Assembly (NCBI GenBank): GCA_016793265.1
Contig: JAEUHT010000028.1
Location: forward strand, 1-64,000
DNA length: 64,000 nt
From: Planctomycetota bacterium
GTDB taxonomy: Bacteria > Planctomycetota > UBA1135 > UBA2386
Direction of reading: 5' to 3'
A program made the position numbers and the translations under genes. Each line of letters opens with the position of its first letter. Position 1 is the stretch's first letter. Below the pieces are notes generated by a model, which was not told the origin of the DNA, ran no database searches, and worked only from the letters and a program-made list of their open reading frames with translations. Of this stretch, positions 1 to 49,749 are shown one piece after another.

Positions 1-323
1 GGACGGCTGCGGCGACACCGCTGCCGCCGGTCGAGGTCGACTTCGTCAAGTGCGTCTGGTTCTTCCTGCGCAACCGGGAACTGCAAGCGACCGCGGACCG
101 GGTCTTCGCCAATCACCCGAAGCTCACCATCACCTACGAAGAGCTGAGCGCAGACCCGCAGCGCGTCGGCAGGCAGTGCGTCGAGTTCCTCGGGCTCGAC
201 CCCAGCGTGCCCCTCAAGGTAGGACAGAAGAAGAGCGCCACGGACACTCTGCGTGAGGCGATCTCGAACTACGACGAGCTGAGGTCGCAGTTTGCCGAGT
301 GGGCGGGGTTCTTCGACGACTGA
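1..323 (+). CDS. Sulfotransferase, C-terminal part (5' truncated by window edge)
   Basis: About 107 codons are visible, in frame from base 3 to the TGA at 321-323; the start lies outside the window. The visible end reads like the C-terminal third of a PAPS-dependent sulfotransferase of the Stf0/LPS-sulfotransferase type: an aromatic strand (KCVWFFLRNREL), then ITYEELSADP followed by the EFLGLD helix that usually comes just after the 3'-phosphate-binding region, and a final segment with SNYDELRSQF. The catalytic and PAPS 5'-loop regions are upstream and cannot be checked. Such enzymes transfer sulfate from PAPS to carbohydrate or lipid hydroxyls. The PAPS-forming genes cysC, cysD and cysNC at 31.5-35 kb could supply its donor; that link is inference. 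Confidence 0.6.
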   Translation, partial: TAAATPLPPVEVDFVKCVWFFLRNRELQATADRVFANHPKLTITYEELSADPQRVGRQCVEFLGLDPSVPLKVGQKKSATDTLREAISNYDELRSQFAEWAGFFDD

Positions 324-415: not shown

Positions 416-1855
416 ATGACCGAGCGTGTGCGCCCCTACCTCTTCTACGGCGCGACGACTGCGTTGTGCGGGACCTGCCTGCGCCCGGTCGAGGCCAAGG
501 AGGTGATCGAAGGTGATCAGGTCTGGCTGCTGAAGCACTGCGCGACACATGGTGCGCAGCGCGTGATGATCGCCGCCGACGCCGAATACTGGCGGCACGG
601 CCGCGAGCGCTTCTTGAAGCCGCCGGAGCAGGTGGCGAAGCCCAACACCACGTTTCGCTGGGGCTGCCCGTTCGACTGCGGCATCTGCACCGAGCACGAG
701 CAGCACGGGTGCCTGACACTCCTCGAGATCACCGACCACTGCAACCTGCGCTGCCCGACCTGCTATGCCGGCAGCGGACCGGAGCGGCTCTTGCACCACG
801 ACTTGCCGACGATCGAAGGCATGCTCGATTGCATCGTGCGCAACGAGGTCGATCCCGACATCGTGCAGATCAGCGGCGGCGAGCCGACCTTGCACCCGCG
901 GTTCTGGGAGGTGATGGACGCGGTGCGCCGGCGGCCGATCCGGCACCGCATGCTCAACACCAATGGCCTGCGCATCGCCGACGAACCGGGCTTCGCCGAA
1001 CGCCTCGCGTCGTATGGCCCGGGCTTCGAGGTCTACCTGCAGTTCGACAGCCTGCGCGAAGCAGCCTTGCGCACGCTGCGCGGTGCCGACCTGCGTCGCG
1101 TGCGGGAACGGGCGCTCACGCGGCTGAACGCGCTCGACCTGTCGACGACGCTCGTCGTCACGGTCCGTCGCGGCTGCAACGACGACGAACTCGGCGAGCT
1201 GCTTCGTTTCGCGGTGGCGCAGCGCTGTGTGCGCGGCATCACCTTCCAGCCGGTGCAGGACGCCGGGCGCAACGACGGCTACGACGCCGGCGCGCACCGG
1301 CTGACGCTCGGCGAAGTGCGGCGCCGGCTGCTCGCGCAGTGTGATTGGTTCACGCCGGCGGACATCGTGCCGGTGCCGTGCCACCCGGACACCCTGGCGA
1401 TGGCCTACGCGCTGCGCCGCCCACACGGCAGGTCGCCGATCACGCCGCTGACCGGTCTGGCGCCGCCCGAGGTGTTGCTGCAGGGCACACGCAACACCAT
1501 CGCGCTCGAACGCGACGACGTGCTGCAGCGCGAATTCGTGCGCGCCTTCAGCACCGCGCACGGACCCGAAGGTGCCGCCGCGGCGATCGGCCGGCTGCTG
1601 TGTTGCCTGCCCGGCGTGCGGCTCGCCCAGGCCGCGCCACCGCGCTACCAGGACGTGTTCCGCGTCGTCATCATGAAGTTCCTCGACCGCCACGACCTCG
1701 ACCTGCGGTCGGTGCGCAAGTCCTGCGTGCACATCGCCCACCCCGACGGCAAGCGCGTGATCCCGTTCGACACCTACAACCTGTTCTATCGCGGAGGCCT
1801 CGAGGCCGAGGTGTTGGCGCCGCTGCGGGCGGCGAGCGAACGGGCGCGGTCGTGA
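416..1855 (+). CDS. Radical SAM enzyme of the tetraether synthase (Tes/MJ0619)-like family
   Basis: 479 aa, ATG start at 416. Three cysteine clusters are visible. An N-terminal knuckle has C18, C21, C42 and H45, as expected for a rubredoxin- or zinc-like site. Next comes GCPFDCGIC (C84, C88, C91) with C99, and then the radical SAM CX3CX2C motif CNLRCPTC (C109, C113, C116), which binds the SAM-cleaving 4Fe-4S cluster. This arrangement is that of the MJ0619 family, in which the archaeal enzyme joins lipid chains to form tetraethers; other members were annotated as pterin methyltransferases. A GGEPTLHP segment follows at about residue 157. The stop overlaps the start of the Lgt-like gene (GTGA), so the two are co-translated. 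Substrate is unknown; lipid or lipoprotein modification is inferred from the neighbour. Confidence 0.82.
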   Translation: MTERVRPYLFYGATTALCGTCLRPVEAKEVIEGDQVWLLKHCATHGAQRVMIAADAEYWRHGRERFLKPPEQVAKPNTTFRWGCPFDCGICTEHEQHGCLTLLEITDHCNLRCPTCYAGSGPERLLHHDLPTIEGMLDCIVRNEVDPDIVQISGGEPTLHPRFWEVMDAVRRRPIRHRMLNTNGLRIADEPGFAERLASYGPGFEVYLQFDSLREAALRTLRGADLRRVRERALTRLNALDLSTTLVVTVRRGCNDDELGELLRFAVAQRCVRGITFQPVQDAGRNDGYDAGAHRLTLGEVRRRLLAQCDWFTPADIVPVPCHPDTLAMAYALRRPHGRSPITPLTGLAPPEVLLQGTRNTIALERDDVLQREFVRAFSTAHGPEGAAAAIGRLLCCLPGVRLAQAAPPRYQDVFRVVIMKFLDRHDLDLRSVRKSCVHIAHPDGKRVIPFDTYNLFYRGGLEAEVLAPLRAASERARS

Positions 1856-2556
1856 CGGGCTACTTGCTGTGGGTCGTGGCTGGGGTCGTCGCCGCCGGGC
1901 TGGCGACGCGTTGGCAGGGCCGCAGCTTCGCGCTGGAACCGGCGACGCGGCAGGAGATCGCCCTTGCGGCGCTGCTCGGCGCCTTGCTGGGCGCCCACCT
2001 GCTGCAGCTGCCCGCGGACGCATTCGGGTGGCACGCCCCACCGCCGCCCGGGCTGCCGGCGGAGGTGTCGCCGTTCGGTGGCCGCACCGTGCTCGGTGGC
2101 CTGATCGGCGGCTGGCTGGCCGTCGAATGGCAGAAGCGACGCCTCGGGGTGCGGTCGGCGACCGGCGGCGGGTTCGCCTTGCCGGTCGCGCTGGCGCTCG
2201 GGTTCGGGCGCCTCGGCTGCATCGCCGCGGGCTGTTGCGCCGGCGTCGAATGTGCGCCGGGTTGGTTCGCGACCACCGACGTGGCCGGCGTGCCGCGAGT
2301 GCCGGTGCAGGCGATCGAGGCCGGCTTCCATTTCGTCGCCGCCGGGTTGCTGGCGCTCGCCGCTCGCCGCCGCTGGGCCCAGTCGCGGCGCCTGGCCATC
2401 TACTTCACCGCCTACGCGGCGTTGCGCTTCGGCCTCGAGTTCCGGCGGCAGCATCCCGTGGTGCTGCTCGGGCTCACCTGGCATCAGTGGCTCGCCCTGG
2501 TGTTGTTCGGCATCGCCGGCTCGACCTGGTGGCGGCGGCGCGTCACCGGTAGTTGA
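1852..2556 (+). CDS. Lgt-like (prolipoprotein diacylglyceryl transferase family) membrane protein
   Basis: 234 aa, GTG start overlapping the radical SAM stop by 4 nt. The protein is polytopic with about six or seven hydrophobic segments. Lgt-family landmarks are recognisable: the GGLIGG turn, a GRLGC segment where Lgt has its GRxGNFxN signature, VPVQAIE in place of HPxQxYE, and YAALRFGLEFRR matching the late R...E pair. The catalytic histidine of the HGG loop is replaced by leucine, and the signature asparagines and glutamate are replaced by a Cys-rich GCIAAGCC. It is therefore probably not the housekeeping Lgt but a family member with another task, likely acting with the upstream radical SAM enzyme. 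Its 3' end overlaps the convergent gene by 14 bp. Confidence 0.7.
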   Translation: MTGYLLWVVAGVVAAGLATRWQGRSFALEPATRQEIALAALLGALLGAHLLQLPADAFGWHAPPPPGLPAEVSPFGGRTVLGGLIGGWLAVEWQKRRLGVRSATGGGFALPVALALGFGRLGCIAAGCCAGVECAPGWFATTDVAGVPRVPVQAIEAGFHFVAAGLLALAARRRWAQSRRLAIYFTAYAALRFGLEFRRQHPVVLLGLTWHQWLALVLFGIAGSTWWRRRVTGS

Positions 2557-2941
2557 ACATCATCGTGCCGTAGCAGCCGCCGATCGCGAAGGCGACCGCG
2601 AGCATGACGATCGCGAACGTCTGCTGGCCGCTGGAGCGCACCGCCCGCGGCCAGGCGAACTGCTCGATCGCCAGCGCGACGGCGGCCACGGCCATCATGG
2701 CGCTGCCGAGCGCGAGGCCGAGCACCTGGTACTTCGGCTGCGCCCACGGGCCGAGGCCGGCGTCGCCGAGCGTGATCAGCACGCACGTGCCCGAGGTGAA
2801 CACCAGCAGCACGAACGCCGCCCACGAGAGCACGCGCCGCGGGGGCGCAGCTCGCTGCGGTTGTCTGCCGAGCAGGCGCAGGCCGGAACGCAGGGCCAGG
2901 GAGCCCACCAGCAGGGTGAAGAGTGCATCGATCGGCCACAT
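2543..2941 (-). CDS. Small four-helix membrane protein, unknown
   Basis: 132 aa, ATG at 2941 (minus). Four hydrophobic segments are visible, at roughly residues 3-20, 37-59, 71-93 and 107-128, separated by short Arg-rich loops; the C-terminus (MMFNYR) is cytoplasmic by the positive-inside rule. No conserved catalytic motif is recognised. It converges on the Lgt-like gene with a 14-bp tail-to-tail overlap, so it is transcribed separately. The reading frame is supported by its length, the GC-rich third positions and the clean membrane-protein pattern. Function is unknown. Confidence 0.55.
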   Translation of the reverse strand: MWPIDALFTLLVGSLALRSGLRLLGRQPQRAAPPRRVLSWAAFVLLVFTSGTCVLITLGDAGLGPWAQPKYQVLGLALGSAMMAVAAVALAIEQFAWPRAVRSSGQQTFAIVMLAVAFAIGGCYGTMMFNYR

Positions 2942-3084
2942 CGGCGGCGACTCTACCGGTGGACCCGCGCCGGCGCCGGCCTGCGTGATTCGTGCCAGAT
3001 CGGCACGGTCGATCGTCGGGTCGGTGTTGCGGGGTGGCGCGGGGACCCGGCCTACCCCCGTTGCCCGATGTCACTGGGCTGTAG

Positions 3085-3090
3085 TAGGGT
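3085..3090 (+). promoter_or_regulatory. Candidate -10 box (TAGGGT) for the FG-GAP gene
   Basis: TAGGGT fits the TANNNT box seen upstream of several starts in this window. A TTGCCC at 3061-3066 lies 18 nt upstream as a possible -35. The leader to the GTG at 3156 would be about 60 nt. The 2942-3155 gap holds nothing else I can name. Confidence 0.35.
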
Positions 3091-3155
3091 GTCGCAGCCT
3101 TTCGCGGCTCCGTTCGCAGCCAGCCCCGTCCGTCCAGCCTGCCCAAGAGGAATCC

Positions 3156-5771
3156 GTGCGTCTCAAAGCCTCGTACTGCCTGGCCACTGCGGTGGCCGCA
3201 ATCGTCTCTCCGACCCTGCGCGCGCAATGGGTCACCTTCCAGGACCAGACCTCGACGCGCCTCGTCGCCGCGGCCAGCCTCGGCTCGGCCGACGTGCAGG
3301 AGAAGGACTACGCCTGGGCCGACTTCGACCACGACGGGGACGTCGACCTCGTCGTCGTGCGCAAGCAGCCGGTGACGACGACGGGTCGTTATCCGAACGT
3401 TCTGCTCATGAACGAGGGCGGCGTGTTGACCGACCGCACCACCCAGTACGCGAGCGCGTCGACGGTGGCCGGCAGCCAGGGCATGCTCGACGCCACCAAC
3501 GACCGCGACGTCGTCGTCGCCGACGTCAACGGCGATGGCTGGGAGGACCTCGTCACCGCGACCACGCTGTCGCAGGGGCTGGCCCAGTACATCCGCGTGC
3601 CGCGCGTCTACATCAACCTCGGCGACGACCTGGTCGGCAACTGGCAGGGCTTCCTGTTCGACGACGCGCTGCGCATCAACGACATGCAGGCGGGCGCGAG
3701 CTGGAACGGCGAACACCGCTTCTGCTCGGTCGCGGCCGGCGACATCGACGGCGACGGCGACATCGACCTCTACTTCGGCGACTACCAGCAGGGCGGCACC
3801 CGCTCGATCGACATCGACGATCGGCTGCTGATCAACGACGGCAACGGCTACTTCACCGACCAGACGGCGGCGCGCATGACGGCCACGATGGTCGAGTCGT
3901 CGTTCGCGATGAAGGTCGCGATGGTCGACATGAACCTCGACGGCAAGCTGGACATCCTCAAGGACGATGCCCTCAACGCGCCGCAGGGCATCTCGGTCAG
4001 CTACAACGACACGGCGACGCCGGGCGTCTTCGGCACCTACCAGGTCGTCTACAACAACGCGCCGTACCACTTCAACGTCGGCGACCTCAACAACGACAAC
4101 CTGCCCGACCTGATCGTCAGCGACGACGGCCAGGACCGCTACCAGCTGCACGCCGGCGTCGTCGGCGGCCTGGCGACCTTCGGCGGCACCATCTCCTTCA
4201 CCTACGTCGGTGGCGGCAACGACGACGGCTTCGGCGGCAACAACCTGATCGCCGACCTCAACAACGACGGCTGGAAGGACGCCATCATCGCCGACGTCGA
4301 CGTCGACATCGCCGGCTGCGCGCGCCGTTGCCACATCTTCCAGAACCTCGGCAATGCGCCGAACGTCACGATGCAGGAGCAGCAGATCAGCGGCGCGGTC
4401 TGCGGCATCCCGACCGCCGACCTGATCGGCACCTACGACGTCGCGGTGTTCGACATCAACGGCGACGGCTGGAACGACATGGTGATCGGGCGCTGCACGG
4501 GCACGCAGGTCTGGATCAACCAGCCGCCGACCGGCATGACGTTCAGTTACCCAGGTGGCCTGCCGACGATGATCGCGGCTGGCAGCATCCAGCAGATCGA
4601 CGTCATCGCCACCGGCATCGGCGGTGTCGTGCCGCAGCCGGGCGCCGGCCGCCTCTATTCGTCGATCGACGGCGCGCCGTTCACCTTCACGGTGATGAGC
4701 GACATCGGGCCGGGCCACTACCACGCCAACCTGCCGGTGATGGCGAACTGCGCCAGCACGCTGCGCTTCTACGTCACCGTCGGCACGCAGGGCGGGGTGA
4801 CCTTCTCCGACCCGCCGATGGCGCCGGCCGCGTCGAACGTCGCGACTGCGGCGAGCGGCACGCAGGTGCTCTACGAAGACGGCTTCGAAGGCACCGTGAC
4901 CGGCTGGTCGGTCTCGAGCCTGGCGCTGACGTCGGGCGCCTGGGAGGTCGCGGTGCCGAACGGCACCACGGTGGTGGGGCAGTTCGCGGCGCCGCCCGAG
5001 GACGGCGAGGCCAGCACGTCGTCGACGCATTGCTGGGTGACGCAGAACGGCGTTCCGTTGGGCGCGGCCTCCGCGGCCGACGTCGACGGTGGTCCCACGG
5101 ATCTGGTCTCGCCGCCGATCGACTTCGGCGGCACCGACGGCTTCATCTCCTACCGCCGCTGGTTCTACTGCAGCACCAACGACGACACGCTGACCGTCTG
5201 GGTGTCGCCGAACGGCAGCAACTGGACGCTGGTCGAGACCGTCACCGGTCCGAACATGAACCAGTGGATCCAGCACCAGTTCCGGGTCAGTGACTTCATC
5301 ACCCCGAGCAGCACGGTGCGCGTGCGCTTCCGTGTCGCCGACAACCCCAACAACTCGACGACCGAAGCCGCGATCGACCTGTTCCGCGCCGAGGCCTTCT
5401 CGTGCCAGACGTGCCAGCAGGTCATCACGCTGCCGACGGTCGGTACCGCGACGATGTCGATGTGCGGCGGCGACCTGTCGCCGGGCACGCTGACCACGCT
5501 CACCATCGACGGCATGCCCGCGTTCGGTAGCGGCCTCTTGCTGTTCGACCTGTTCCTGGTGCCGACGCCGTGGCAGGGTGGCTCGTTGCTGGCGCCGGCG
5601 CCGGTGATCCTCGGCCCGGTGTTCGGCGACGCCAACGGCGACTTCGTCGCGCCGCTGCCGATCGGCGGCCTGCTGCCGGCGGGTTGGGCGCTCCACATGC
5701 AGACCGTCTACTCCGACGCGGCGCAGCCGTTCGGGGTCGGCCAGACGAACGTCGTCAAGGTCCAGTGGTGA
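3156..5771 (+). CDS. Secreted FG-GAP/VCBS-repeat protein
   Basis: 871 aa. GTG at 3156 is chosen because it places a signal peptide at residues 1-23 (ending LRAQ). Seven calcium-binding-type DxDxDG motifs recur at about residues 56, 123, 196, 258, 310, 367 and 433 (for example DIDGDGDID and DLNNDGWKD), giving an FG-GAP/VCBS beta-propeller. Residues ~570-755 look like a jelly-roll/MAM-type module, with SPPIDFGGTDGFISYRRW and later strands. The last ~105 residues (from MSMCGGDLSPGTL) form a beta-rich terminal domain shared with other exported proteins here. It is probably a cell-surface or extracellular adhesion protein; no enzymatic motif is seen. The gene is followed by a hairpin terminator. 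Confidence 0.85.
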   Translation: MRLKASYCLATAVAAIVSPTLRAQWVTFQDQTSTRLVAAASLGSADVQEKDYAWADFDHDGDVDLVVVRKQPVTTTGRYPNVLLMNEGGVLTDRTTQYASASTVAGSQGMLDATNDRDVVVADVNGDGWEDLVTATTLSQGLAQYIRVPRVYINLGDDLVGNWQGFLFDDALRINDMQAGASWNGEHRFCSVAAGDIDGDGDIDLYFGDYQQGGTRSIDIDDRLLINDGNGYFTDQTAARMTATMVESSFAMKVAMVDMNLDGKLDILKDDALNAPQGISVSYNDTATPGVFGTYQVVYNNAPYHFNVGDLNNDNLPDLIVSDDGQDRYQLHAGVVGGLATFGGTISFTYVGGGNDDGFGGNNLIADLNNDGWKDAIIADVDVDIAGCARRCHIFQNLGNAPNVTMQEQQISGAVCGIPTADLIGTYDVAVFDINGDGWNDMVIGRCTGTQVWINQPPTGMTFSYPGGLPTMIAAGSIQQIDVIATGIGGVVPQPGAGRLYSSIDGAPFTFTVMSDIGPGHYHANLPVMANCASTLRFYVTVGTQGGVTFSDPPMAPAASNVATAASGTQVLYEDGFEGTVTGWSVSSLALTSGAWEVAVPNGTTVVGQFAAPPEDGEASTSSTHCWVTQNGVPLGAASAADVDGGPTDLVSPPIDFGGTDGFISYRRWFYCSTNDDTLTVWVSPNGSNWTLVETVTGPNMNQWIQHQFRVSDFITPSSTVRVRFRVADNPNNSTTEAAIDLFRAEAFSCQTCQQVITLPTVGTATMSMCGGDLSPGTLTTLTIDGMPAFGSGLLLFDLFLVPTPWQGGSLLAPAPVILGPVFGDANGDFVAPLPIGGLLPAGWALHMQTVYSDAAQPFGVGQTNVVKVQW

Positions 5772-5815
5772 CCGCCGCGGCGTAATCAACGCGGCGCGCC
5801 GCTCCGCGTCCCCGC

Positions 5816-5849
5816 AGCCCGGGCTTCGCCGCCGTGCGGTGCCCGGGCT
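5816..5849 (+). terminator. Hairpin terminator after the FG-GAP gene
   Basis: Perfect 9-bp inverted repeat AGCCCGGGC (5816-5824) / GCCCGGGCT (5841-5849) with a 16-nt loop, followed by the T-rich CTTGTGTTCTT. The T tract is imperfect. Confidence 0.5.
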
Positions 5850-5862
5850 CTTGTGTTCTTGG

Positions 5863-5868
5863 TAAGCT
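5863..5868 (+). promoter_or_regulatory. Candidate -10 box (TAAGCT) for the di-heme oxidoreductase gene
   Basis: TAAGCT fits TANNNT and lies just after the hairpin terminator, 52 nt before the ATG at 5921. No convincing -35 is seen. Confidence 0.35.
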
Positions 5869-5920
5869 CTCTCTTCCCGAAGTGCGCCCTGCCCCGGGCG
5901 CCTCTGCTTCTGCCACTGCC

Positions 5921-7771
5921 ATGCGATCCTTCGAACTCTCCTTCACTGTCGCCGTCTTCGCCGCCCAGGGCCTGATCGCCCAGGCGCCCCAGCCCAAGAT
6001 GGGCGCGCCGCTCGCCGGGCTCACCGCTCCGCAGATGCAGCGCTTCGTCGCCGGCCGCGTCGACTTCACGCACCAGACCACCGTCGGTGAGGGCCTCGGC
6101 CCGATCTTCAATCAGAGCGCGTGCTCGAGCTGCCACAACAACCCGGTCGGTGGTCCCGGCAGCATCACGGTGACGCGCTTCGGTTACCTGGACGGCAAGG
6201 GCACCTTCGATCCGCTTGCGTCGCTCGGCGGCTCGCTGCTGCAGCAGCTCGCGATCGATGTGGCCTGCCAGGAGATCGTGCCGTCGGCCGCGAACGTGAC
6301 CGCGACCCGCGTCACCACGTCGACGCTCGGGCTCGGCCTGATCGAGGCGATCGCGGACGCCGACATCGCGGCCAACGAGCTGACGCCGCCGGCGCCCGGC
6401 ATCTCGGGCCGCGTGCACTGGGTGCACGAACTCGAGAACCCCACCGGCCCGCTGCGCGCAGGCCGTTTCGGCTGGAAGGCGCAGCTCGCCACGGTGCTGA
6501 GCTTCTCGGGCGACGCGGCGCAGAACGAGATGGGCTTCACCAACCGCCTGTTGCCGACGGAGAACGCGCCGAACGGCAACCTGGCGCTGCTGGCCGCCTG
6601 GGACGGCGTCGCCGACCCCGAGGACGGCCCGGACGGCAACGGCCTGCACTTCATCGACCGCATCACCGACTTCCAGCGTTATCTCGCCGCGCCGCCGCAG
6701 ACGCCGCGCGCGGGCATGACCGGCGAGGCGATCTTCAACACCGTCGGCTGCGCGGCGTGCCACGTCGCGACCTTCACGACCGCCAACGCCCCGGCGCTCG
6801 AGCCTGCGCTGCGCAACAAGATCATCCACCCGTACAGCGACTTCCTCGTGCACGACATGGGCGTCGCCGCCGACTTCATCGAGCAGGGTGGCGCCAGCGG
6901 CCAGGAGGTCCGCACGCCGCCGCTGTGGGGGCTGCGCAATCGTGATCCGCTGTGGCACGACGGCCGCGTCGCCGGCGGCACGCTCGAGACGCGCATGCTC
7001 GGCCCGGCCGGCATCATCTTCCAGCACGCTGCGTTCGGCAGCGAAGCGGCGGCCTCGGCGGCTGCGTTCGGCAACCTGACCACGGCCGATCAGCTGCGGG
7101 TCGTCGCCTTCCTCGACTCGCTCGGCCGCGCCGAGTTCGACTGGAACGGCGACAACGTGCTCGACCAGGTCGACCTCGCGGCGTTCCGCGACGCGATGGG
7201 CGGCGGGCCGTTCACCGCCGATGACCCGAAGGCGATCTTCGACATCGACCAGAACGGCTTCGTCGACAGCGCCGACCTCGCCGCCTTCGCCACCGTCTAC
7301 GAGGTGGACTGCAACGGCAGCGGCGGCACCGACCTCGCCGACGTGCTCGCCGGCCTGGCCGCGGATTCGAACGGCAACTACATCCCCGACGTCTGCGAAC
7401 ACTGCCAGCTCGACCTCGGCTTCGCCGGCGGGGGCAGCCTGCTGCTGACGATGTGTGGCGACGTGATGACCACGGCCGGCTCGAAGGGCACCTTCGAGCT
7501 GAGCGCGGGCCCTGCCAATGCTCCGGTGTTGGTCGGCATCGGCATCGCCGCCAATCCACACCTGGTCACGGCGACCGAGTTCCTGGTGCCGCTGGAGCCG
7601 ATGGTCGCGCTCGTCATCGGCCTCGCCACCGACGCCAACGGCGGCCTGCGGCTGCCGATCTTCGGCGGCGGCGTCTTGCCGACCACCGACTGGGTGTTCC
7701 AGGCCGCGACCTTCGACGGGGTCGCCTTCGACCTGTCGAACGCCGTGCTGATCACCGTCGGCGGCTTCTGA
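5921..7771 (+). CDS. Secreted di-heme (MauG/DHOR-like) oxidoreductase fused to dockerin-like EF-hands
   Basis: 616 aa, ATG at 5921 giving a signal peptide ending near QGLIAQ. Two c-type heme motifs are present: CSSCH (C68, C71, H72) and CAACH (C277, C280, H281). The spacing and surrounding residues (FNQSACSSCHNNP; later LGLGLIEAI and TPPLWGLRNR) match the di-heme thiol oxidoreductase family (DUF1111). Residues ~407-475 hold dockerin-type calcium loops (DWNGDNVLDQVDLAAF, DIDQNGFVDSADLAAF) and a PDVCE end motif. A C-terminal beta domain of ~120 residues (from CQLDLGFAGGGSLLLTMCG) is shared with neighbouring exported proteins. It acts outside the cytoplasmic membrane; its electron donor and substrate are unknown. 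The dockerin-like part suggests docking to a partner or to the cell surface, which is inference. Confidence 0.85.
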   Translation: MRSFELSFTVAVFAAQGLIAQAPQPKMGAPLAGLTAPQMQRFVAGRVDFTHQTTVGEGLGPIFNQSACSSCHNNPVGGPGSITVTRFGYLDGKGTFDPLASLGGSLLQQLAIDVACQEIVPSAANVTATRVTTSTLGLGLIEAIADADIAANELTPPAPGISGRVHWVHELENPTGPLRAGRFGWKAQLATVLSFSGDAAQNEMGFTNRLLPTENAPNGNLALLAAWDGVADPEDGPDGNGLHFIDRITDFQRYLAAPPQTPRAGMTGEAIFNTVGCAACHVATFTTANAPALEPALRNKIIHPYSDFLVHDMGVAADFIEQGGASGQEVRTPPLWGLRNRDPLWHDGRVAGGTLETRMLGPAGIIFQHAAFGSEAAASAAAFGNLTTADQLRVVAFLDSLGRAEFDWNGDNVLDQVDLAAFRDAMGGGPFTADDPKAIFDIDQNGFVDSADLAAFATVYEVDCNGSGGTDLADVLAGLAADSNGNYIPDVCEHCQLDLGFAGGGSLLLTMCGDVMTTAGSKGTFELSAGPANAPVLVGIGIAANPHLVTATEFLVPLEPMVALVIGLATDANGGLRLPIFGGGVLPTTDWVFQAATFDGVAFDLSNAVLITVGGF

Positions 7772-7892
7772 TCGGCCGGCGCGGCCCGTCCGGCGGCGGC
7801 CGCGGCCCCTGCGTGAGGAATCGACCAAGCTGCCGGCAAGGTTCGGCGGGCGGCACCACGCAGCGTCGGCGTGTGGCAGCATTCGCCCGCCC

Positions 7893-8786
7893 ATGAAGCT
7901 CCCGTTCGCCCCCGTCCTGCTGTCTGCCTTGTGTGCCTGCAGCTCCGGCAGTGCCCCGTCGACGCCCGCGCTGCGGGCCGACGCCAGCATCACCGTCGAG
8001 AACGCCCTCGCGGCGTCGCGCGCCGCGGTCGACGCCACCGTCGACGTCGTGCGGGTGGCGCAGATCGGCGCTCGCTTCCTCACCGAGCAGCCGCCCGAGC
8101 CGCCGACGGGCACTGCGGCCGCCGAGCTGTCCCTGACGTTCGACGGCCCCAACGGCGGCCAGGCCATCCACACCTGGAACGACGCCGACGGCGACGGCAA
8201 GCCGTCCACCGGCGACACGTTCACCGAGACCTTCGTTGCCTGGTCCGACGGCTACGAGCTCAGCGGCACCGTCTTGTTCGACGAGGTGGTGGTCACCGGC
8301 GACCCGTTCGACGGCATCACCTGGCGCATCGAGGCGCGGCTGCACTTCGTCAATCTGGTGGTGACGCAGAACGCAGCGACGACGACCTGGAACGGCAGCG
8401 TGCTCTGCACTCGCGAGCAGCGGCTGACGGCGAAGCTGCTGGTGCTGCAGTTCGACAGCGACTTCCGGCTCGGCGCGCTGACGCTCGCCGCTGGCGCGCG
8501 GCTCGAACGCAACGAGTACCCGATCGACTTCACGATGGGCATCTTCGTGCAGGGCTTCGTAACCGTGCCGGAGCTCGGCGGTGGCCTCGAAGTGGCGACC
8601 GTGGCGCCGTTGTCGGGGCTGGCGGCGCTGCAGAACCCGTGGGCGGGCACGCTCGAAGTGCGCGGCGGCGATCGTGGTGTGCTGCAGGTGGTGCCGGTCG
8701 ACTTCTTCAACGTCGAGATCCACGTCGACGCCGACGGCGACGGCATCGAGGACGCGCTGTTGCCAGCGGAGTGGGCCGAACTGTGA
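7893..8786 (+). CDS. Probable lipoprotein, unknown
   Basis: 297 aa, ATG at 7893. The N-terminus MKLPFAPVLLSALCACSSG is a short lipoprotein-like signal; C18, preceded by LCA, is the likely lipidated cysteine although it departs slightly from the usual lipobox. The remainder is beta-rich, with an acidic loop DADGDGKPSTGD near residue 93 and a similar DADGDGIED near the C-terminus that resemble calcium-binding loops. No enzyme motif is recognised. It sits between two other exported-protein genes on the same strand. A CAGCAT box lies 10 nt before the start and may be a -10 element for a very short leader. Confidence 0.6.
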   Translation: MKLPFAPVLLSALCACSSGSAPSTPALRADASITVENALAASRAAVDATVDVVRVAQIGARFLTEQPPEPPTGTAAAELSLTFDGPNGGQAIHTWNDADGDGKPSTGDTFTETFVAWSDGYELSGTVLFDEVVVTGDPFDGITWRIEARLHFVNLVVTQNAATTTWNGSVLCTREQRLTAKLLVLQFDSDFRLGALTLAAGARLERNEYPIDFTMGIFVQGFVTVPELGGGLEVATVAPLSGLAALQNPWAGTLEVRGGDRGVLQVVPVDFFNVEIHVDADGDGIEDALLPAEWAEL

Positions 8787-8836
8787 GGCGGCGGCCGCGG
8801 CGGCCGACCGCGGCTTGTGGGTGGGCGGCGGCGCCG

Positions 8837-8842
8837 TAGGCT
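8837..8842 (+). promoter_or_regulatory. Candidate -10 box (TAGGCT) placing a leaderless start at 8850
   Basis: TAGGCT ends 7 nt before the ATG at 8850, so transcription would begin at or within a base or two of the start codon. TTGTGG at 8815-8820 with a 16-nt spacer is a possible -35. Confidence 0.45.
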
Positions 8843-8849
8843 TCCGCCG

Positions 8850-10697
8850 ATGCTGCGACCGCTCGCCCCGTTGTTGTTCTCGTCCCTGCTCCTGGCGCAG
8901 GCGCCGGCGCCGGCGCCGGCAGGACCACTCGCCTGGCTGCCGGCGAATGCGACCAACGTGATGGTCGTGCACGACCTGCTGCCGCACCTGCAGGCGCTGC
9001 TGGCCTCGCCGGTGTTCGCCGAGCTGGTCACGGCGTCGATGCCGCTGCAGGAGCAGATGTTCGGCGGCGCCCGCGACCCGAAGGCCCTGCAGCGGCTGGC
9101 GAAGCCCTTCGAGGTCTACGTGCCGCGCGAGTTCGGCCTCGCCCTGCCGACGGCGTTCTGGGACCGCCTGGTCGACGTGCTGGACGCGGCGACCGCGGTG
9201 TTGGGCCTCAAGGACCAGGACCTCGACGCCGGCGAAGCCAGGGCGCTGCGCCTTGCGGCCGAAGAGGCGATCACCTCGGTGCGCCGTGTCGATGGCCTGA
9301 TCTGGGTCGAGGCGCGCGACGAACGGGTCGCCGATCGTTGGTTCGAGTCGATCGCCGGCATGCTGCGCGAGCTCGACCCCGGCCTCGGCATCGGCGTGAC
9401 CTTCGGCGATGGGGTGGTGACGGCGACGGTCAAGGCGCGCGAGTTCGCCGGCGGTCGCCTCGTCACCCAGCTCACGAAGCTCGGCCTCGACCTGCATGGC
9501 TCCTGGGACCCGACCTTCGCGGCGACGCTGCGGCTCGACGGTGCCCGGCTCGTGCTGCAGCTCGGCGAACGTGGCGCCGGCAACTTCGACGGCAAGGTCT
9601 TCGGCGACCTGTGGCCCGCGGCGACGCCGCCGTTCGCGGCGTGGACGGTCGATTGCGGCGACAACCTCGCCCGCTTGGCCGAACTGCAGGAACGCCTGCT
9701 GGGCATGCTCGGGTCGCCCGAGGAGGCGGTCGTCGACGTGGCGTCGCAGGCCTTCTTCCGGCTGCAGCGCATGCTGGACAACCTCGGCCGCTATCGCGGC
9801 GCGGTCCAGCTCGGCGCGGAGTGGGTGTGGACCACCGAAGAGCTGTTCGACGAGGCCACCGAGACCATCGACCCGGTGCCCGTCGCACTGCAGCGCGGCT
9901 ACGCGCCGCTGGCCGGCCCAGGTCTGGTGATCGCGGCGCCGCTCGACTTCGTCGGCGCCACGGTGTTGGACCAACTCGCCACGCAGTTCGGCAGCCGCGG
10001 CATGATGACGTCGGACGCGTTCGACCAGATCTACGACTTCTTCGCCGGCGAGGAGTCGGCCCTGTTCGAGCCGGGCACGCTGCTGGTCACGCGCCCCGCC
10101 GCGTTCCGCGGTCAAGAAGGCTGGCCGCACGGCGCTATGCCGTTCGCCGCGTTCGCGGTGGTCGCCAAGGCCAACGACGACGCCGCGGCGGGCGCCTTCA
10201 TGGCCTCGCTCTCGACCCACCTCGCCACCGTGCTCGATGTCGAAGAGCTGGCGTGGAAGGCGGCGGACCTCGGTCCTGGCATCGACGCCAACCTGCTCGA
10301 CCTCGAAGCGCTGGCACCGGAGCTGGCTTCGCCACACACGGATTGGGACTTCGCGCCGCACTGGTGCGTGCTCGACGGCATGTTCGTGCTCAGCAGCGAC
10401 CCGAACCTGACGCGTGAGCTCGCGGCGCAGATGCGCGGCGACCAGGTGCCGGTGCCGGCCAGCGCCGAGGCCGTGGCGCTGATGAGCCTCCGTGGCGACG
10501 ACCTGCGCGGCATCGCCGTCGGGCTCGGCAAGTGGGCGGCCGTGGTGCCGCTCGGTGACGCCGGGCTGATGGTGCAGCCGCTGCTGCGCGCCGTGCAGGT
10601 GTTGGGCGAACAGCTCGATGTCGTCGACTGGCGGCTCGACGAAGAAGTCGACATGCTGCGCGACGTGCTGCGCGTGCGCTGGAAGGCGGCGAAGTAG
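8850..10697 (+). CDS. Exported protein, unknown (DUF3352-like appearance)
   Basis: 615 aa. ATG at 8850 is preferred over an in-frame ATG at 8817 because it gives a clean signal peptide (MLRPLAPLLFSSLLLAQ) and sits 7 nt after a -10-like box. An Ala/Pro linker (APAPAPAGP) follows. The mature part begins LAWLPANATNVMVVHDL, resembling planctomycete DUF3352-type proteins whose N-terminus reads 'LPxxtxxvvvv'. No catalytic motif is seen; the protein is acidic, with many Leu-rich amphipathic helices. The gene lies between the lipoprotein gene and the M14 peptidase gene, all co-oriented. Periplasmic location is inferred from the signal peptide; function is unknown. Confidence 0.6.
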   Translation: MLRPLAPLLFSSLLLAQAPAPAPAGPLAWLPANATNVMVVHDLLPHLQALLASPVFAELVTASMPLQEQMFGGARDPKALQRLAKPFEVYVPREFGLALPTAFWDRLVDVLDAATAVLGLKDQDLDAGEARALRLAAEEAITSVRRVDGLIWVEARDERVADRWFESIAGMLRELDPGLGIGVTFGDGVVTATVKAREFAGGRLVTQLTKLGLDLHGSWDPTFAATLRLDGARLVLQLGERGAGNFDGKVFGDLWPAATPPFAAWTVDCGDNLARLAELQERLLGMLGSPEEAVVDVASQAFFRLQRMLDNLGRYRGAVQLGAEWVWTTEELFDEATETIDPVPVALQRGYAPLAGPGLVIAAPLDFVGATVLDQLATQFGSRGMMTSDAFDQIYDFFAGEESALFEPGTLLVTRPAAFRGQEGWPHGAMPFAAFAVVAKANDDAAAGAFMASLSTHLATVLDVEELAWKAADLGPGIDANLLDLEALAPELASPHTDWDFAPHWCVLDGMFVLSSDPNLTRELAAQMRGDQVPVPASAEAVALMSLRGDDLRGIAVGLGKWAAVVPLGDAGLMVQPLLRAVQVLGEQLDVVDWRLDEEVDMLRDVLRVRWKAAK

Positions 10698-10793
10698 CGC
10701 TACGCTGCGGCGTCACGGGCGGCCCACCGGCCACCGCCCCCCGGGGCTCTGGGCGTTGACGGCGCTACCCGGCCCGGCGACCCTGTGCAGCCC

Positions 10794-12518
10794 ATGCGTC
10801 GCCGAGCCGCCAGCTTCCTGTTCACCTTCGCCCTGGCCGCCACGGGCCTCGCCCGCGCCCAGACCCCGGTCGTCACTTTCGCCGGCGAGACGATGCGGCT
10901 GCGCAGCGCGACCGTCAGCAACGGCAGCGGCGGCGCCTTCAACGTCGGCCTCGTGATGGAGGACGACAACGCCAACGGCTCGCTCGGCAGCAGCTTCCGC
11001 CGCTGGTGGCACTGCCAGATCGGGAGCCTGAATCCCGCCGGCACGACGATGACGATCACCGTCAGCAACGCCGGCTACACCGACATCATCCTGCCGGTGT
11101 GGTCGTCGTCGACCGATGGTGTGACGTTCGGTCCGTACACGCGTGTGCCGCTGAGTGCCCTGCCGACGCTGATCGGCTCGACGCAGCACCGCTTCACGCT
11201 GACGACGCCACCCGGCGTCACCGCCATCCGCCTGGCGAAGTACTTCCCGTACTCGGTGACGCGCAAGGACGCGTGGCTGGCGACCCTGGCCGGCGATGCC
11301 CACGTGCGCAGCATCGCCGTGATCGGCAGCTCCACCCAGGGCCGCCCGATCCACCGCATCGAGATGACCGACGGCACCGTGCCCGACGCCGGCAAAGCGC
11401 GCATCTGGATCCACGCCGGCATCCACCCGAGCGAGACCACCAGCTACTTCACCGTCGAAGGGCTCGTCGCCTGGCTGCGTTCGGGTGACGCGCTCGCCGA
11501 GGTGCTGCTCGACCACACGATCCTCGACATCGTGCCGATGGCCAATCCCGATGGCGTCTTCCTGGGCAACTACCGCACCAACGCCAACTCGGTCAACCTC
11601 GAGAACGAGTGGGCCGCGCCATACAACAGCTCGCAGGGCGAGATCGTCGCGCTGCGCACCACGATCGAGTCGTACATGGGCACGGTCGCCAGCCCCGGCG
11701 CCAACCCGATCGGCGTGCTGCTCAACCTGCACAGCTCGCACAACGTCAGCTTCCCGTTCCATTTCCGGCACGTGGCCAACGCGAGCTGGAATCCGACGAC
11801 GAACAACTCCGGCGTCATCCCGCTGGTCAACCAGATCGAAGGGGATTGGATCGACGCGTTCGCAGCGCGCAGCAACTTCGTCGATCTCGGCTCGACGCAG
11901 AGCAGCACCGCCGGCGCGCCGTCGCGGCCGTTCGTCGAGTCGATGTGCCACGATCGCTGGACCGCGGTGAACGGCTGGCTCAACGCGCCGGGCTTCCAGG
12001 ACCCGGTGATGGCGATCACCTTCGAGGGCACCTACGGCAAGGGCCCGGACGCGGTGACGTGGAACACCGAAGCCGACTACCGCCAGTGTGGTGCCGAGAT
12101 GGGGCAGGCGCTCGCCGACTACCTCGGCCTCACGCTGACAGCGAGCCTGACGACCTACGCGGGGCCGTGCAGCAGCGTGACGCTCGGCGGTTCGCTGGCG
12201 GCGCAGCCCGACGGCAGCCACGTCGCCAACCTGCAGATCACGAACGGCTACGCCAACGGCGGCTGCATCCTCGTGCTCGGCGGCGCACAGATCCTGGCGC
12301 CGCTGCCGGCACCGTGGAATGCGTGTGCGCTGGTCTGCTCGCCCGACGCGTCGGTTGCGTTCCTGCTCGATGGTTCGGGGGCGGCGTCGGTTCCGCTCGC
12401 GGTGCCCGCGGTCGCCGGCCTCGGCGCCTACCTGCAGGCGCTCGCGCTCGACTTCTCGATGCCACCGGCGCTGCTGCTCGACGCCAGCAACGGCGTGCAC
12501 CTCGCCAACGACTATTGA
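10794..12518 (+). CDS. Secreted M14-family zinc carboxypeptidase
   Basis: 574 aa from ATG 10794 (an in-frame GTG at 10785 would add three residues); signal peptide through ARAQ. M14 metallocarboxypeptidase residues are visible. The zinc pair is in HPSE (H211, E214), with R261 in NYRTNANSVNLENEW as substrate-carboxylate Arg. The third zinc ligand is H313 in LNLHSSHN and the catalytic Glu is E411 in ITFEGTYG. The HPSE...NLE(N)EW layout is closest to the cytosolic-carboxypeptidase-like (M14D) subfamily. An N-terminal beta domain (residues ~25-165) matches that subfamily, and a C-terminal ~130-residue beta domain ending DASNGVHLAN is shared with neighbouring exported proteins. It probably trims peptides outside the cytoplasmic membrane. 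Confidence 0.8.
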   Translation: MRRRAASFLFTFALAATGLARAQTPVVTFAGETMRLRSATVSNGSGGAFNVGLVMEDDNANGSLGSSFRRWWHCQIGSLNPAGTTMTITVSNAGYTDIILPVWSSSTDGVTFGPYTRVPLSALPTLIGSTQHRFTLTTPPGVTAIRLAKYFPYSVTRKDAWLATLAGDAHVRSIAVIGSSTQGRPIHRIEMTDGTVPDAGKARIWIHAGIHPSETTSYFTVEGLVAWLRSGDALAEVLLDHTILDIVPMANPDGVFLGNYRTNANSVNLENEWAAPYNSSQGEIVALRTTIESYMGTVASPGANPIGVLLNLHSSHNVSFPFHFRHVANASWNPTTNNSGVIPLVNQIEGDWIDAFAARSNFVDLGSTQSSTAGAPSRPFVESMCHDRWTAVNGWLNAPGFQDPVMAITFEGTYGKGPDAVTWNTEADYRQCGAEMGQALADYLGLTLTASLTTYAGPCSSVTLGGSLAAQPDGSHVANLQITNGYANGGCILVLGGAQILAPLPAPWNACALVCSPDASVAFLLDGSGAASVPLAVPAVAGLGAYLQALALDFSMPPALLLDASNGVHLANDY

Positions 12519-30260: not shown

Positions 30261-31478
30261 TCAGGGGCGGGTCGACTCGATCTGCCAGCGGTGCTCCTGC
30301 AGGAACAGGCCGAGGTCCTTGGTGCGGTTCTGCACGATCAGGTTGTCGTTCGCCGGGCGCTCGTGGAAACGGTGCACGCCGTGTTCGTCGAACAGCCAGA
30401 CCGGCACCGTGAACTCGCCCGAGAGCAGGCCGAGCCTCTCGAAGTGCAGCTGTACGACGCCTTCCTCGAAGTCGAAGGTCTGGCCGGCGAACTGGGTCGT
30501 GTGCGCGAAGCACAACGTGCCGTCCTTGCGCATGAAGCCGACGGCCAGCGACAGTCGCTCGCGCTTCTTGCCGTTGCGCACGAACACACGCACGGTCAGC
30601 GGGTCGCCGGGGGCGAAGGTGTTGCGCCGTTCGCCGGTCTTGGGGTCGACCATCCAGGCGTCGGTGATGCACGGCAGGTCGGCCTCGGGGCCCTGCGCCT
30701 TCGGCACGCCGTCGTACTCGACGGGGTCGGCGGCGCCCGCGACCTTGGCCTCGTAGGTCGCGTACTCGTTGGTGACCGTGATCGAGTCGGCGAGCAGTTG
30801 CATGCGGCCGTTGCGCATCCAGATCGCGCGTTCGCAGATCTGCCGCACGTCGTAGAGCGAGTGCGAGCAGAAGAACATCGACTTGCCGCGCTTCTTGTAG
30901 TCCCAGATCTTGTCGACGCACTTGCGGCGGAAGTTCATGTCGCCGACGGCGAGGATCTCGTCGATGATCAGCAGGTCCGGCTCGGTGGCGACGGCGACGC
31001 TGAAGCCGAGCCGCGCGCCCATGCCCGACGAGTAGGTGCGCACCGGCGCGTTGATGAAGTCGCCGAGCTCGCTGAACTCGACGATCTCCTGGTACTTGCG
31101 CTGCGCCTCCTTGCGCGAGAAGCCCATCATGGCCGCGTTCATGAAGATGTTCTCGCGGCCCGAGAAGTTCATGTGGAAGCCGGCGCCGAGCTCGAGCAGG
31201 CTGGTGACGCGGCCGCGCACGGTGTAGCTGCCGGCGGTCGGGTAGGTGGTGCCGCTGAGCACCTTGAGCAGGGTGGACTTGCCGGCGCCGTTGCTGCCGA
31301 TCAGGCCCATGCACTCGCCAGGCTTGACGTCGAAGTTGACGTCCTCGAGCGCGTTCACCTCGCGGTAGCGCTGCTTCTTGTTCCACGGCAGCCGTTCGAG
31401 CAGGCGCCCATACGGGCTGTGGTAGAGCCGGTAGGCCTTCGACAGCCCCTTGGCCTCGATGATCGGTTCGGCGGTCAT
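30261..31478 (-). CDS. ABC transporter ATPase with Wzt-like C-terminal domain (polysaccharide export)
   Basis: 405 aa, ATG at 31478, overlapping the cysNC stop by 4 nt (ATGA). The nucleotide-binding domain holds Walker [10 protein letters not shown] near residue 60, the signature [14 protein letters not shown], Walker [14 protein letters not shown] and the switch His in FFCSHSLYD, typical of the teichoic/O-antigen exporter subfamily with a long insert before Walker A. Residues ~260-405 form a beta-sandwich C-terminal domain of the Wzt_C kind ([18 protein letters not shown] … [14 protein letters not shown]), which in O-antigen systems reads the non-reducing end of the finished polymer. It should pair with the convergent permease at 29361. 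Being last in the cysC-cysD-cysNC operon ties export to PAPS supply. Confidence 0.88.
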
Positions 31479-33418
31479 GGCAGCAGGTGGCGCGAGCGCA
31501 GCAGCTGCAGCACCTTGTCGATGTTGTCGGCGGCCGGCGTGTTCGCGGTGTCGAGGGTGAGTTCGGGGCGCTGCGGCGGTTCGTACGGCGCGTCGACGCC
31601 GGTGACGTTCTGGATCTCGCCGGCCCTGGCGCGGGCGTAGAGGCCGTCGTGGTCGCGCGCCTCGCAGACCGCGAGCGGCGCGTCGCAGAACACCTCCAGG
31701 AAGCGGTCGGCGCCGACGATCGCGCGCACCTGCTGGCGTTCGAACTCGAGCGGCGACACCAGGGCGACGATCGTGCTGATGCCGGAGCCGAGGTTGAGGC
31801 GCGCCAGTTCGGCGGCGCGGCGCTGGTTCTCCCAGCGGTCGGCACCGCTGAAGCCGAGGTCGCGGCTGAGCCCGAGCCGCAGCAGCTCGCCGTCCAGCAC
31901 CTGGACGTGGCGCTGGGCCTCGAACAGCTTCTCCTCGAGCGCGTAGGCGAGCGAGGTCTTGCCCGAGCGCGGCAGCCCCGTGATCCACAATACGAACGGC
32001 TCCTGGCCGAGCCGCGCCTTGCGTGCCTCCGGCGTGATGCGCCGCTTCGCCTGCATGCGAACGAAGCGGCCGGCGTCGGCGGCGGCCTGCCGGCGCTGCG
32101 TCGCGTCGGCGGCGGTCTTGCGTTCGACGATCATGCCGGCGCCGACGGTGGCGTTGGTGAGCCGGTCGATCAGGATGAAGGCGCCGGTGGCGCGGTTCTT
32201 GGCGTAGGCATCGGCGGCGAGCGGCCGGGTGCACTCGAGGCGGATGCGGCCGACCTCGTTCATCTGCAGGCCCTGCGCCGGCTCGCGGTGCAGGTCGCCG
32301 ACGTTGATGCGGTAGCGCACCTCGTCGACGACGCCGGAGGTCGTCGCCGTGGTGTGCTTGACCAGGTACTGCTTGCCGGTCTGCAGCGGCGTCTCGCTGA
32401 ACCACACCAGCATGGCCTCGACCGAGTTCTCGAGCGGCGGCGCGTTGTTCGGGGCGACGATCATGTCGCCGCGGCTGATGTCGATCTCGTCGGTCAGCGT
32501 CACCGTGATCGCCATGCCGGCGAAGGCCTCCGCGAGCTCGCCGTCGAACGTCACGATCGACTTGACCCGGCTCTGCTTGCCGGACGGCAGCGTCGAGATG
32601 CGGTCGCCTGTGCGCAGCACGCCGGAGGCGAGTGTGCCGGCGAAGCCGCGGAAGTCGAGGTTGGGCCGCACCACGTTCTGCACCGGGAAGCGCAGGTCGA
32701 CGAAGTTCTTGTCGCTGGCGACGTGCACCGTCTCCAGGTGGTCGAGCAGCGGCGACCCCTGGAACCACGGCATGCTGGCGCCTCGATGCACGACGTTCTC
32801 TCCCTTCAACGCCGACAGCGGGATGAAGTGGATGTCGCGCACGCCGAGGCGCGCGGCGAACTCGCTGTAGGCCTCGCGGATCTCCTGGAAGCGCGCTTCG
32901 GAGTAGCCGACCAGGTCCATCTTGTTGACGGCGATGACGAAGTGCTGGATGCCCAGCAGCGAGCAGATGAACGAGTGGCGCCGCGTCTGCTCCAGCACCC
33001 CGTGGCGGGCGTCGATCAGGATCACCGCCAGGTCGCAGTTCGAGGCGCCGGTGGCCATGTTGCGCGTGTACTGCACGTGCCCCGGCGTGTCGGCGATGAT
33101 GAACTTGCGCCGTTCGGTGGCGAAGTAGCGGTAGGCGACGTCGATGGTGATGCCCTGCTCGCGCTCGGCTTGCAGGCCGTCGACGAGCAGCGCCAGGTCG
33201 ACCTCCTCGCCGGTGGTGCCGAACTTCTCGCTGGCCTTCTTGGTCGCGCGCAGCACGTCGTCGAAGACCATCTGCGAGTCGTAGAGCAGGCGGCCGATCA
33301 GCGTCGACTTGCCGTCGTCGACGCTGCCGCAGGTCAACAGCCGCAGCATCTCGCGGTTGCCGTAGCGCTGCAGGTAGGTGTCGATGCCCTGCTCGTCCAG
33401 TTGGCGGGAGTAGCTCAT
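31475..33418 (-). CDS. cysN: Sulfate adenylyltransferase GTPase subunit fused to an APS-kinase-like domain (CysNC)
   Basis: 647 aa. The start ATG shares one base with the cysD stop (TGATG). The N-terminal part is an EF-Tu-like GTPase that drives ATP sulfurylase: P-loop GSVDDGKST (residues 31-39), [17 protein letters not shown], and NKMD. Domains II/III follow to about residue 440. The C-terminal 173 residues are APS-kinase-like with P-loop GLPRSGKT (481-488). However, the DGDN motif reads DGEL (509-512), the following RHGL is RLGL, and the SPFRxDR substrate segment is SPLEFER (555-561). The kinase half may be altered or inactive, while the separate CysC upstream is canonical. Together with CysD it forms APS from sulfate and ATP. 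Confidence 0.9.
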
Positions 33419-42597: not shown

Positions 42598-42963
42598 ATG
42601 AGTGGACTCGATCTGCCGCCGCTCGGCGGCTACGACCTGAACCGCTTCACGCGCGAGCTGCGCGCGGCGCTGCCGGGCCTGCAGGGGCGCGAAGGCGTCG
42701 AGCCGACGGCGCCCGAGGGCCCGAGCCTGGTGCGGTCGCCGTCGCCGTCGTTCGCCAGCTCGCTGGCCGACGCCATCGAGAACGTGCAGTCGCTGCAGGA
42801 CGAGACCGCGCAGAAGACGCGCGGCCTCGCGCTCGGCGAAGACGTCGAGATCCACGACGTGCTGGTCGCCGCCGGCAAGAGCGAAGTCGCCTTCAACCTC
42901 ATGCTCGAGGTCCGCAACAAACTGATGGACGCGTGGGATCGACTCTCGCGTTCGGTCTCCTGA
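42598..42963 (+). CDS. fliE: Flagellar hook-basal body protein FliE
   Basis: 121 aa, ATG at 42598 with GAGGTGA upstream. FliE joins the MS-ring to the rod. The C-terminal half is characteristic: FASSLADAIENVQSLQ, then VEIHDVLVAAGKSEVAFNL and EVRNKLMDAWDRL (usual 'vrnKlveAYqEimrM'). The N-terminal 50 residues are Pro/Gly-rich and variable, as is normal. It sits between flgC and fliF as in many flagellar operons, 4 bp before fliF. Confidence 0.88.
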   Translation: MSGLDLPPLGGYDLNRFTRELRAALPGLQGREGVEPTAPEGPSLVRSPSPSFASSLADAIENVQSLQDETAQKTRGLALGEDVEIHDVLVAAGKSEVAFNLMLEVRNKLMDAWDRLSRSVS

Positions 42964-42967
42964 TCCC

Positions 42968-44476: not shown

Positions 44477-44486
44477 GGCAGGCGCC

Positions 44487-45506: not shown

Positions 45507-45507
45507 C

Positions 45508-47411: not shown

Positions 47412-47499
47412 CCACGAACGTGGCGGCAGCCGACGGCGGCGGCGGCGGGCGGCGGGATTCCGCTCAGCTTCCGCCCATGCCACGGCCGATACGGCACGC

Positions 47500-49097: not shown

Positions 49098-49197
49098 CGG
49101 CGGCGCCCGCACGGCGGGCGATGAAGACTTCAACACCCGCACGGTGCGCTGCCGATAAGGGCACGGCTCAGGATCGGCGGCGCCAACGAGGAACCAC

Positions 49198-49713: not shown

Positions 49714-49749
49714 CCGCCGCGTCGCCTGTCGACGCCCAGGACCACCCCC

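Follow-up and report, generated by a model that had tools for sequence, protein, structure and literature searches.

Overlapping genes at the start of the window

Two overlapping genes on the forward strand lie near the start of the window, by which we mean the whole 64,000-nucleotide stretch of DNA analyzed here. The first (positions 416 to 1855; ATG at 416, stop codon at 1853 to 1855) encodes a Tes-like radical SAM (rSAM) protein of 479 amino acids. The second (1852 to 2556; GTG at 1852, stop codon at 2554 to 2556) encodes an Lgt-like membrane protein of 234 amino acids. The rSAM stop and the Lgt-like start share 4 nucleotides within the sequence GTGA, and the gene overlap noted in a preliminary description of this DNA is thus correct. 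A third open reading frame, on the reverse strand (2543 to 2941), is convergent with the Lgt-like gene and overlaps its 3' end.

Other genes of the window were recognized mostly by eye. A sulfotransferase-like C-terminal part, truncated by the window start, occupies 3 to 323 (+); its Pfam matches to Sulfotransfer_1/3 are weak and below cut-off. Large secreted-looking proteins are encoded at 2604 to 10697 and 10785 to 12518 (both +) and, judged by eye, show FG-GAP-look repeats as well as cytochrome-peroxidase/dockerin-like and zinc-carboxypeptidase-like features. By the same kind of inspection of translations, the protein start at 31475 to 33418 (-) resembles the large subunit of sulfate adenylyltransferase, and genes at 42598 to 51144 (+) resemble a flagellar basal-body cluster (FliF, FliG, FliI, and FliM/N-like openings).

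The rSAM protein has a Tes-like fold and a rearranged C-terminal site

The rSAM protein is related to Tes but scores below the curated cut-off for that family. Its Pfam matches, Radical_SAM (64 bits) and Zn_ribbon_HMPTM (51 bits), are both above cut-off. Against the NCBIfam Tes model (NF045702), it reaches 229.5 bits of the 450 required, and members from other phyla mostly reach 260 to 304 bits. The best NCBIfam score, 287.5 bits, is obtained with the TrsS model (NF045646), again below the cut-off, which is 490 bits. Other Lgt-paired rSAM proteins mostly score 310 to 344 bits against TrsS, 344 being the maximum, and none of the 11 proteins scanned attains the TrsS cut-off.

The predicted structure is that of MJ0619 (Tes) along its full length. 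A phmmer search of PDB sequences matches the rSAM protein to 7tol (E=3e-51). An AlphaFold2 model built on 48 sequences (mean pLDDT 87.5) aligns in Foldseek with the Tes structures 7tom and 7tol over 511 columns (E=2e-38; TM 0.80/0.77), while the next-best folds cover the rSAM core only.

The rubredoxin-like, N-terminal, and radical SAM sites of MJ0619 are retained throughout the family. We counted alignment columns in 111 relatives (31 from the window's clade and 80 from a cross-phylum scan), aligned with MJ0619 and outlying branches, and mapped onto them the MJ0619 metal ligands published in PMC9433317. The rubredoxin-like iron site (467 to 550, +) consists of C18, C21, C42, and H45, which correspond to MJ0619 C9, C12, C33, and H36. 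The N-terminal auxiliary [Fe4S4] site (GCPFDCGIC; 662 to 697, +) comprises C84, C88, C91, and H94, and the radical SAM CX3CX2C motif (740 to 763, +) comprises C109, C113, and C116. Each residue is present in 111/111 relatives, so that all 11 ligand positions of these three sites are identical across the family. The SAM-contact residues R210, Q268, and R275 are likewise retained.

The C-terminal site (1379 to 1774, +), in contrast, is rearranged. Column counts and per-sequence motifs show that the Tes-type C338, C455, and C470 give way to C322, C396-C397, C437, and D452; the positions of the three Tes-type cysteines are occupied in the window's protein by T326, S436, and D452. Among the relatives, C455 is changed to Ser, Thr, or Ala and C470 to Asp or Glu in 110/111, and the C338 position is other than Cys in 79/111. 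MJ0619 C456 is retained, while C438 and Tyr459 are not. Additional residues are fixed instead: C99, C322, and C437 are invariant, C396-C397 nearly so, and position 452 carries Glu or Asp. Residues 396 to 399 of the AlphaFold model have a pLDDT below 50.

We infer that C338, C455, and C470 are the Cys ligands of the C-terminal auxiliary [Fe4S4] cluster of MJ0619, because all three are retained in a Tes-like outgroup without an Lgt-like gene (L088-L092, 10/10). As these positions are changed, the C-terminal cluster of the rSAM family would be altered, rebuilt, or lost. The full Tes-family cysteine layout of the preliminary description therefore holds for the knuckle, GCPFDCGIC, and CX3CX2C, and fails for the C-terminal cysteines. 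An identity of the protein as Tes is not supported, and both the curated cut-off and the altered C-terminal residues led us to reject straight annotation as Tes.

The outgroup L088-L092 is a separate Tes-like branch from genomes of the same phylum, often present two or three times in a genome. It keeps the Tes-type C-terminal cysteines and lacks an Lgt-like neighbor. Its one scored member, L090, is closer to Tes (272 bits) than to TrsS (254 bits).

A bacterial Tes activity nevertheless has to be weighed. The rSAM protein would then join fatty-acyl tails end to end, giving membrane-spanning lipids of the brGDGT/diabolic-acid type, and the Lgt-like protein would supply or remodel the lipid head. 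Tes is the closest solved structure, the MJ0619 Met439 position is mostly Met (82/111), and homologues have been proposed for brGDGTs by Zeng et al. (PMC8941075). Yet the scores fall well short of the Tes model both in the window and in most other phyla, and MJ0619 C338, C455, C470, and Tyr459 are not retained. The family also occurs in Flavobacterium, Pedobacter, and Paenibacillus, and we know of no reports of brGDGT/diabolic-acid-type membrane-spanning lipids from these genera. We consider this activity quite unlikely.

The Lgt-like protein keeps the lipid pocket and has new invariant residues

The Lgt-like protein belongs to the Lgt superfamily, and the equivalog cut-offs together with its residues rule out straight annotation as Lgt. 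It scores 70 bits against LGT (PF01790; Pfam cut-off 24.9) and falls below both Lgt equivalogs, TIGR00544 (28 of 118.9 bits) and NF000778 (67 of 334 bits). A phmmer search of PDB sequences gave no match. The AlphaFold2 model (pLDDT 91.8) has E. coli Lgt (5azb) as its sole significant PDB fold match (E=8e-6, probability 1.00). Structure prediction, suggested earlier as a check against MJ0619 and Lgt, thus matches both proteins of the pair to the expected templates.

The residues that are kept belong to the phospholipid pocket. E. coli Lgt R143, E202, Y235, and R239, functional residues lining the phosphatidylglycerol pocket (PMC4728403, PMC8689077), are retained as R120, E156, Y188, and R192. 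At the position of His103, the window's protein has Leu, and pair-type Lgt-like proteins have Leu, Val, or others. In the GRLGCIAAGCC region (2206 to 2244, +), which includes the retained R120, Asn146 is replaced by C123 and Glu151 by C128. E92, K95, R120, C123, Y188, R192, and Q212 are invariant in 44/44 aligned members. E92-x-x-K95 (2125 to 2136, +) forms a VExxK motif that marks the pair-type proteins, being found neither in E. coli Lgt nor in the stand-alone Lgts of the same genomes.

All 20 genomes tested carry an additional, stand-alone Lgt-family gene. The one in the window's own genome (G000 C180) has canonical HGG and NFINGE motifs. Stand-alone Lgts of Acidobacteria have FYGG and GCxxAGCC, and one of Paenibacillus has Tyr for His (L185, L190, L191). 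Because stand-alone Lgts share them, loss of His103 and a GCxxxGCC motif say little by themselves about changed chemistry. The earlier claim of an altered Lgt is accordingly only partly borne out: the His103, Asn146, and Glu151 positions are indeed changed, while the features first singled out are not diagnostic. GCIAAGCC was rejected as a hallmark, since its second and third Cys (C128/C129) are not conserved in the family, other branches having GLxDxT, and the motif also occurs in stand-alone Lgts. On the alignment, the conserved novelties of the Lgt-like protein are C123 and the VExxK motif.

In stand-alone Lgts of Acidobacteria and Elusimicrobia (L190, L191, L195), FYGG replaces HGG and GCxxAGCC replaces NFINGE. 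Should these proteins be the sole true Lgt of their genomes, the catalytic scheme of E. coli would not apply to them.

The gene pair is conserved across bacterial phyla

The rSAM and Lgt-like genes stay together well beyond close relatives of the window, in eight or more bacterial groups. Of 61 genomes from the same family and order, 10 carry the rSAM gene, and the Lgt-like gene is adjacent in seven of the eight such relatives whose surroundings were examined, including one at 35% identity. In a sample of 392 genomes from the phylum, rSAM relatives occur in 59. Lgt-like matches of at least 140 bits number 41 in this sample, and 40 of them lie within 4 kb of the rSAM gene; the remaining one is on a separate contig, in a genome whose rSAM gene is on a short contig. 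Among 198 Bacteroidota genomes, 17 have an Lgt-like match (at least 188 bits), with an rSAM gene present in 16 and adjacent in 15.

A scan with a clade-balanced rSAM consensus yielded 80 loci from Bacillota, Bacteroidota, Pseudomonadota, Acidobacteriota, Cyanobacteriota, Melainabacteria, Elusimicrobiota, Myxococcota, and Planctomycetota, including cultured genera such as Flavobacterium, Pedobacter, Chitinophaga, Paenibacillus, and Brevibacillus. Of these loci, 68 have an Lgt-like gene close to the rSAM gene, in 55 cases at 60 nt or less from the rSAM start. In seven of the 12 loci without one, the rSAM frame starts about 500 nt or less from a contig end. The order is rSAM-Lgt in the window's clade and Lgt-rSAM in most other branches; the linkage has therefore outlived rearrangement. 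In a maximum-likelihood tree, the window and nearly all cross-phylum rSAM sequences form one clade (support 100/100), with MJ0619 and the Lgt-less branch falling outside it. Planctomycetales records cluster in this tree with genomes of the same-phylum sample, which makes Planctomycetota the probable phylum of the window.

Beside an intact rSAM gene, the Lgt-like gene is split over several frames in two loci (L119, 5286-5976, and L157, 922-1668) from Flavobacterium davisii and a Flavobacterium MAG. These are either pseudogenes or sequencing errors.

Functional coupling of the two genes is, in our judgment, almost certain. The joint function proposed in the preliminary description is strongly supported by a pair that persists across phyla while gene order and other neighbors are not conserved. 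The pair thereby withstands the refuting condition set in that description, a lack of conservation outside close relatives. The alternative, a chance neighborhood of a redundant Lgt and a radical SAM gene without relation to it, has in its favor only that both superfamilies are common. It is contradicted by two independent genome samples, in which the genes co-occur and are adjacent, and by the 68/80 loci from many phyla, some branches of which show the reverse gene order, and we regard it as extremely improbable. In the locus survey, no neighbors besides the Lgt-like gene and small transmembrane (TM) proteins recur across phyla, which rules out a larger operon.

Small membrane proteins with a C-terminal cysteine adjoin the pair

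The reverse-strand frame at 2543 to 2941 probably encodes the window's third component. Its 132-amino-acid product has four hydrophobic segments (about four TM helices), a GC3 of 0.95, and the C-terminal sequence AFAIGGCYGTMMFNYR, in which the helix-end Cys stands in the context IGGC. Counterparts ending in [LF]GIG[AST]C adjoin the rSAM gene in nine loci (L011, L014, L015, L016, L017, L055, L056, L058, L101). Because similarity to relatives over the whole protein is weak, we regard the assignment as probable.

Small proteins of this kind directly adjoin the pair in many loci. They have two to four TM helices, frequently occur in two to four tandem copies, and match no Pfam or NCBIfam family above its cut-off. 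Their common feature is a single Cys where the last helix ends, usually 5 to 13 residues from the C-terminus and preceded by small residues, as in NAACFG (Bacillota), LGICGSM (flavobacteria), IGFSTCV (Mucilaginibacter), and GIG[AST]CY (the window's clade). A strict positional Cys rule is passed by 54/61 nearby small TM ORFs and by 2/68 elsewhere in the same loci (Fisher p = 6e-26), and 46/77 loci contain an ORF that passes. A looser C-terminal Cys test separates them less clearly (47/50 loci versus 39/85 control ORFs). In roughly 40% of loci, the small protein is missing or unrecognized, and its divergence prevents alignment across phyla.

Ahead of the last helix, the small proteins have a mean net charge of +2.9, with a positive value in 94% of them. 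Under the positive-inside rule, the Cys is therefore predicted to lie outside, at the outer end of this helix. A Cys at an outer helix end after small residues is a lipoprotein-like trait, although the proteins have no N-terminal signal peptide with a canonical lipobox and carry the Cys near the C-terminus instead. In one planctomycete branch (L079, L080, L085, L086), the small TM proteins carry an N-terminal zinc ribbon, for example CPECGADNNAFAANCWICQRPL, ahead of the TM helices.

A possible three-part membrane module

The predicted folds of both proteins match lipid enzymes (7tom/7tol and 5azb), and the phosphatidylglycerol-pocket residues of Lgt are retained, which makes a role of the pair in lipid chemistry plausible. 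We think it likely that the module handles lipids. To this extent, the "unusual lipid or lipoprotein modification" of the preliminary description stands, without the Tes identity that it assumed. More tentatively, and short of an even chance, we propose that the rSAM protein, the Lgt-like protein, and the small TM protein form a conserved three-part membrane module with the following chemistry.

From the observed linkage of the pair, the folds, the conserved residues, and the presence and topology bias of the small proteins, we infer every catalytic step. The Lgt-like protein would sit in the membrane and bind phosphatidylglycerol or a similar phospholipid at the outer face through the retained Lgt pocket. 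It would pass the diacylglyceryl moiety on to an acceptor, using the E/K pair and the new Cys instead of His103 and Asn146. The acceptor might be the lone Cys of the small protein, located where the last helix reaches the outer face, in a lipobox-like setting at the C-terminus; this is our leading guess from sequence, although a tentative one. The rSAM protein, recruited at the inner face, could create a carbon radical, either in a lipid tail or in the lipidated small protein, and its rearranged C-terminal site could complete a C-C or C-S bond. Bond formation on a lipid tail, as judged from the sequences, is doubtful.

Several observations count against this mechanism. His103 and Asn146, which E. 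coli Lgt requires, are absent, the rSAM protein lacks the Tes C-terminal cysteines, and the small protein goes missing or unrecognized in a large share of loci. The weakest link is topology: the Cys is predicted at the outer face and the rSAM protein is presumably cytosolic, which places the two activities on opposite sides of the membrane. The complete scheme, in which a repurposed Lgt would lipidate small membrane proteins at a C-terminal lipobox-like Cys and a Tes-derived rSAM protein would form a carbon bond on the attached lipid or protein, is unlikely to be right in full. If true, it would be a lipidation system not described before, and its products would make up a new class of covalently modified membrane lipopeptides.

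The small proteins could also be substrates of a RiPP-like maturation. The rSAM protein would modify them, for example by cross-linking the region near the Cys through a thioether or C-C bond, and lipidation or escort would fall to the Lgt-like protein. Small, variable, often tandem-duplicated genes with one fixed Cys beside the rSAM gene fit this explanation, and the maturases SkfB and SuiB are among the next-best folds after Tes, though the shared part is the rSAM core only. However, no peptide-binding (RRE) domain is among the Pfam matches, the Cys is predicted on the outer face, and the best whole-length fold match is a lipid enzyme. We hold such maturation to be improbable.

Alternatively, the Lgt-like protein may be no transferase at all. 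It would then serve as a membrane anchor that binds phospholipid and offers it to the rSAM protein, with the small TM protein as a structural subunit. Loss of His103 and Asn146 with retention of the lipid pocket is what such an anchor would show, and the tight gene coupling is in keeping with it. On the other hand, the new invariant E/K pair, like the invariant Cys and Tyr, suggests catalysis more than decay, and tandem copies suit a substrate better than a subunit. An anchor of this type seems rather improbable to us.

Comparison with known systems

The proposed module of rSAM, Lgt-like, and small TM proteins has parts in common with described enzymes and differs from each. Tes, or GDGT-MAS (MJ0619; NF045702; PDB 7TOL, 7TOM), shares with the rSAM protein the full-length fold, the rubredoxin-like, N-terminal [Fe4S4], and radical SAM ligands, and R210, Q268, and R275. 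In contrast, the rSAM family has the new invariant C99, C322, CC396/397, and E/D452, is without MJ0619 C338, C455, C470, C438, and Tyr459, is bacterial, and has a near-constant Lgt-like neighbor. In Tes, the lipid is joined to the C-terminal cluster as a C-S intermediate, and the cysteines presumed to bind that cluster are the ones changed in the rSAM family. The radical SAM (seleno)protein TrsS (NF045646) gives the highest NCBIfam score, yet one that is under its 490-bit cut-off.

Lgt (PF01790, TIGR00544, PDB 5AZB) shares with the Lgt-like protein its fold and R143, E202, Y235, and R239. The Lgt-like protein differs in having His103 and Asn146 replaced and VExxK gained, and each tested genome has a further Lgt-family gene besides it. 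In Lgt, the active site presumably faces outside, the side also predicted for the small-protein Cys.

Our search of a largely open-access literature returned no account of the rSAM-Lgt pair, the Lgt-like paralogue, or the small proteins. Zeng et al. 2022 (PMC8941075) described bacterial Tes homologues in Acidobacteria, Proteobacteria, and others and proposed them, without proof, for brGDGT synthesis; the main text has no occurrence of Lgt. The proposal is taken up again in PMC11868695. Those homologues and the present proteins belong to the same superfamily, within which the C-terminal site and the partners set the present sub-family apart. Bacterial Tes homologues serve to predict the makers of membrane-spanning lipids (PMC8941075, PMC11868695). 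A large bacterial branch whose C-terminal site is altered and whose Lgt-like partner is fixed should therefore not be counted as Tes untested. Set beside these systems, the module hints at a protein or lipid chemistry not yet described.
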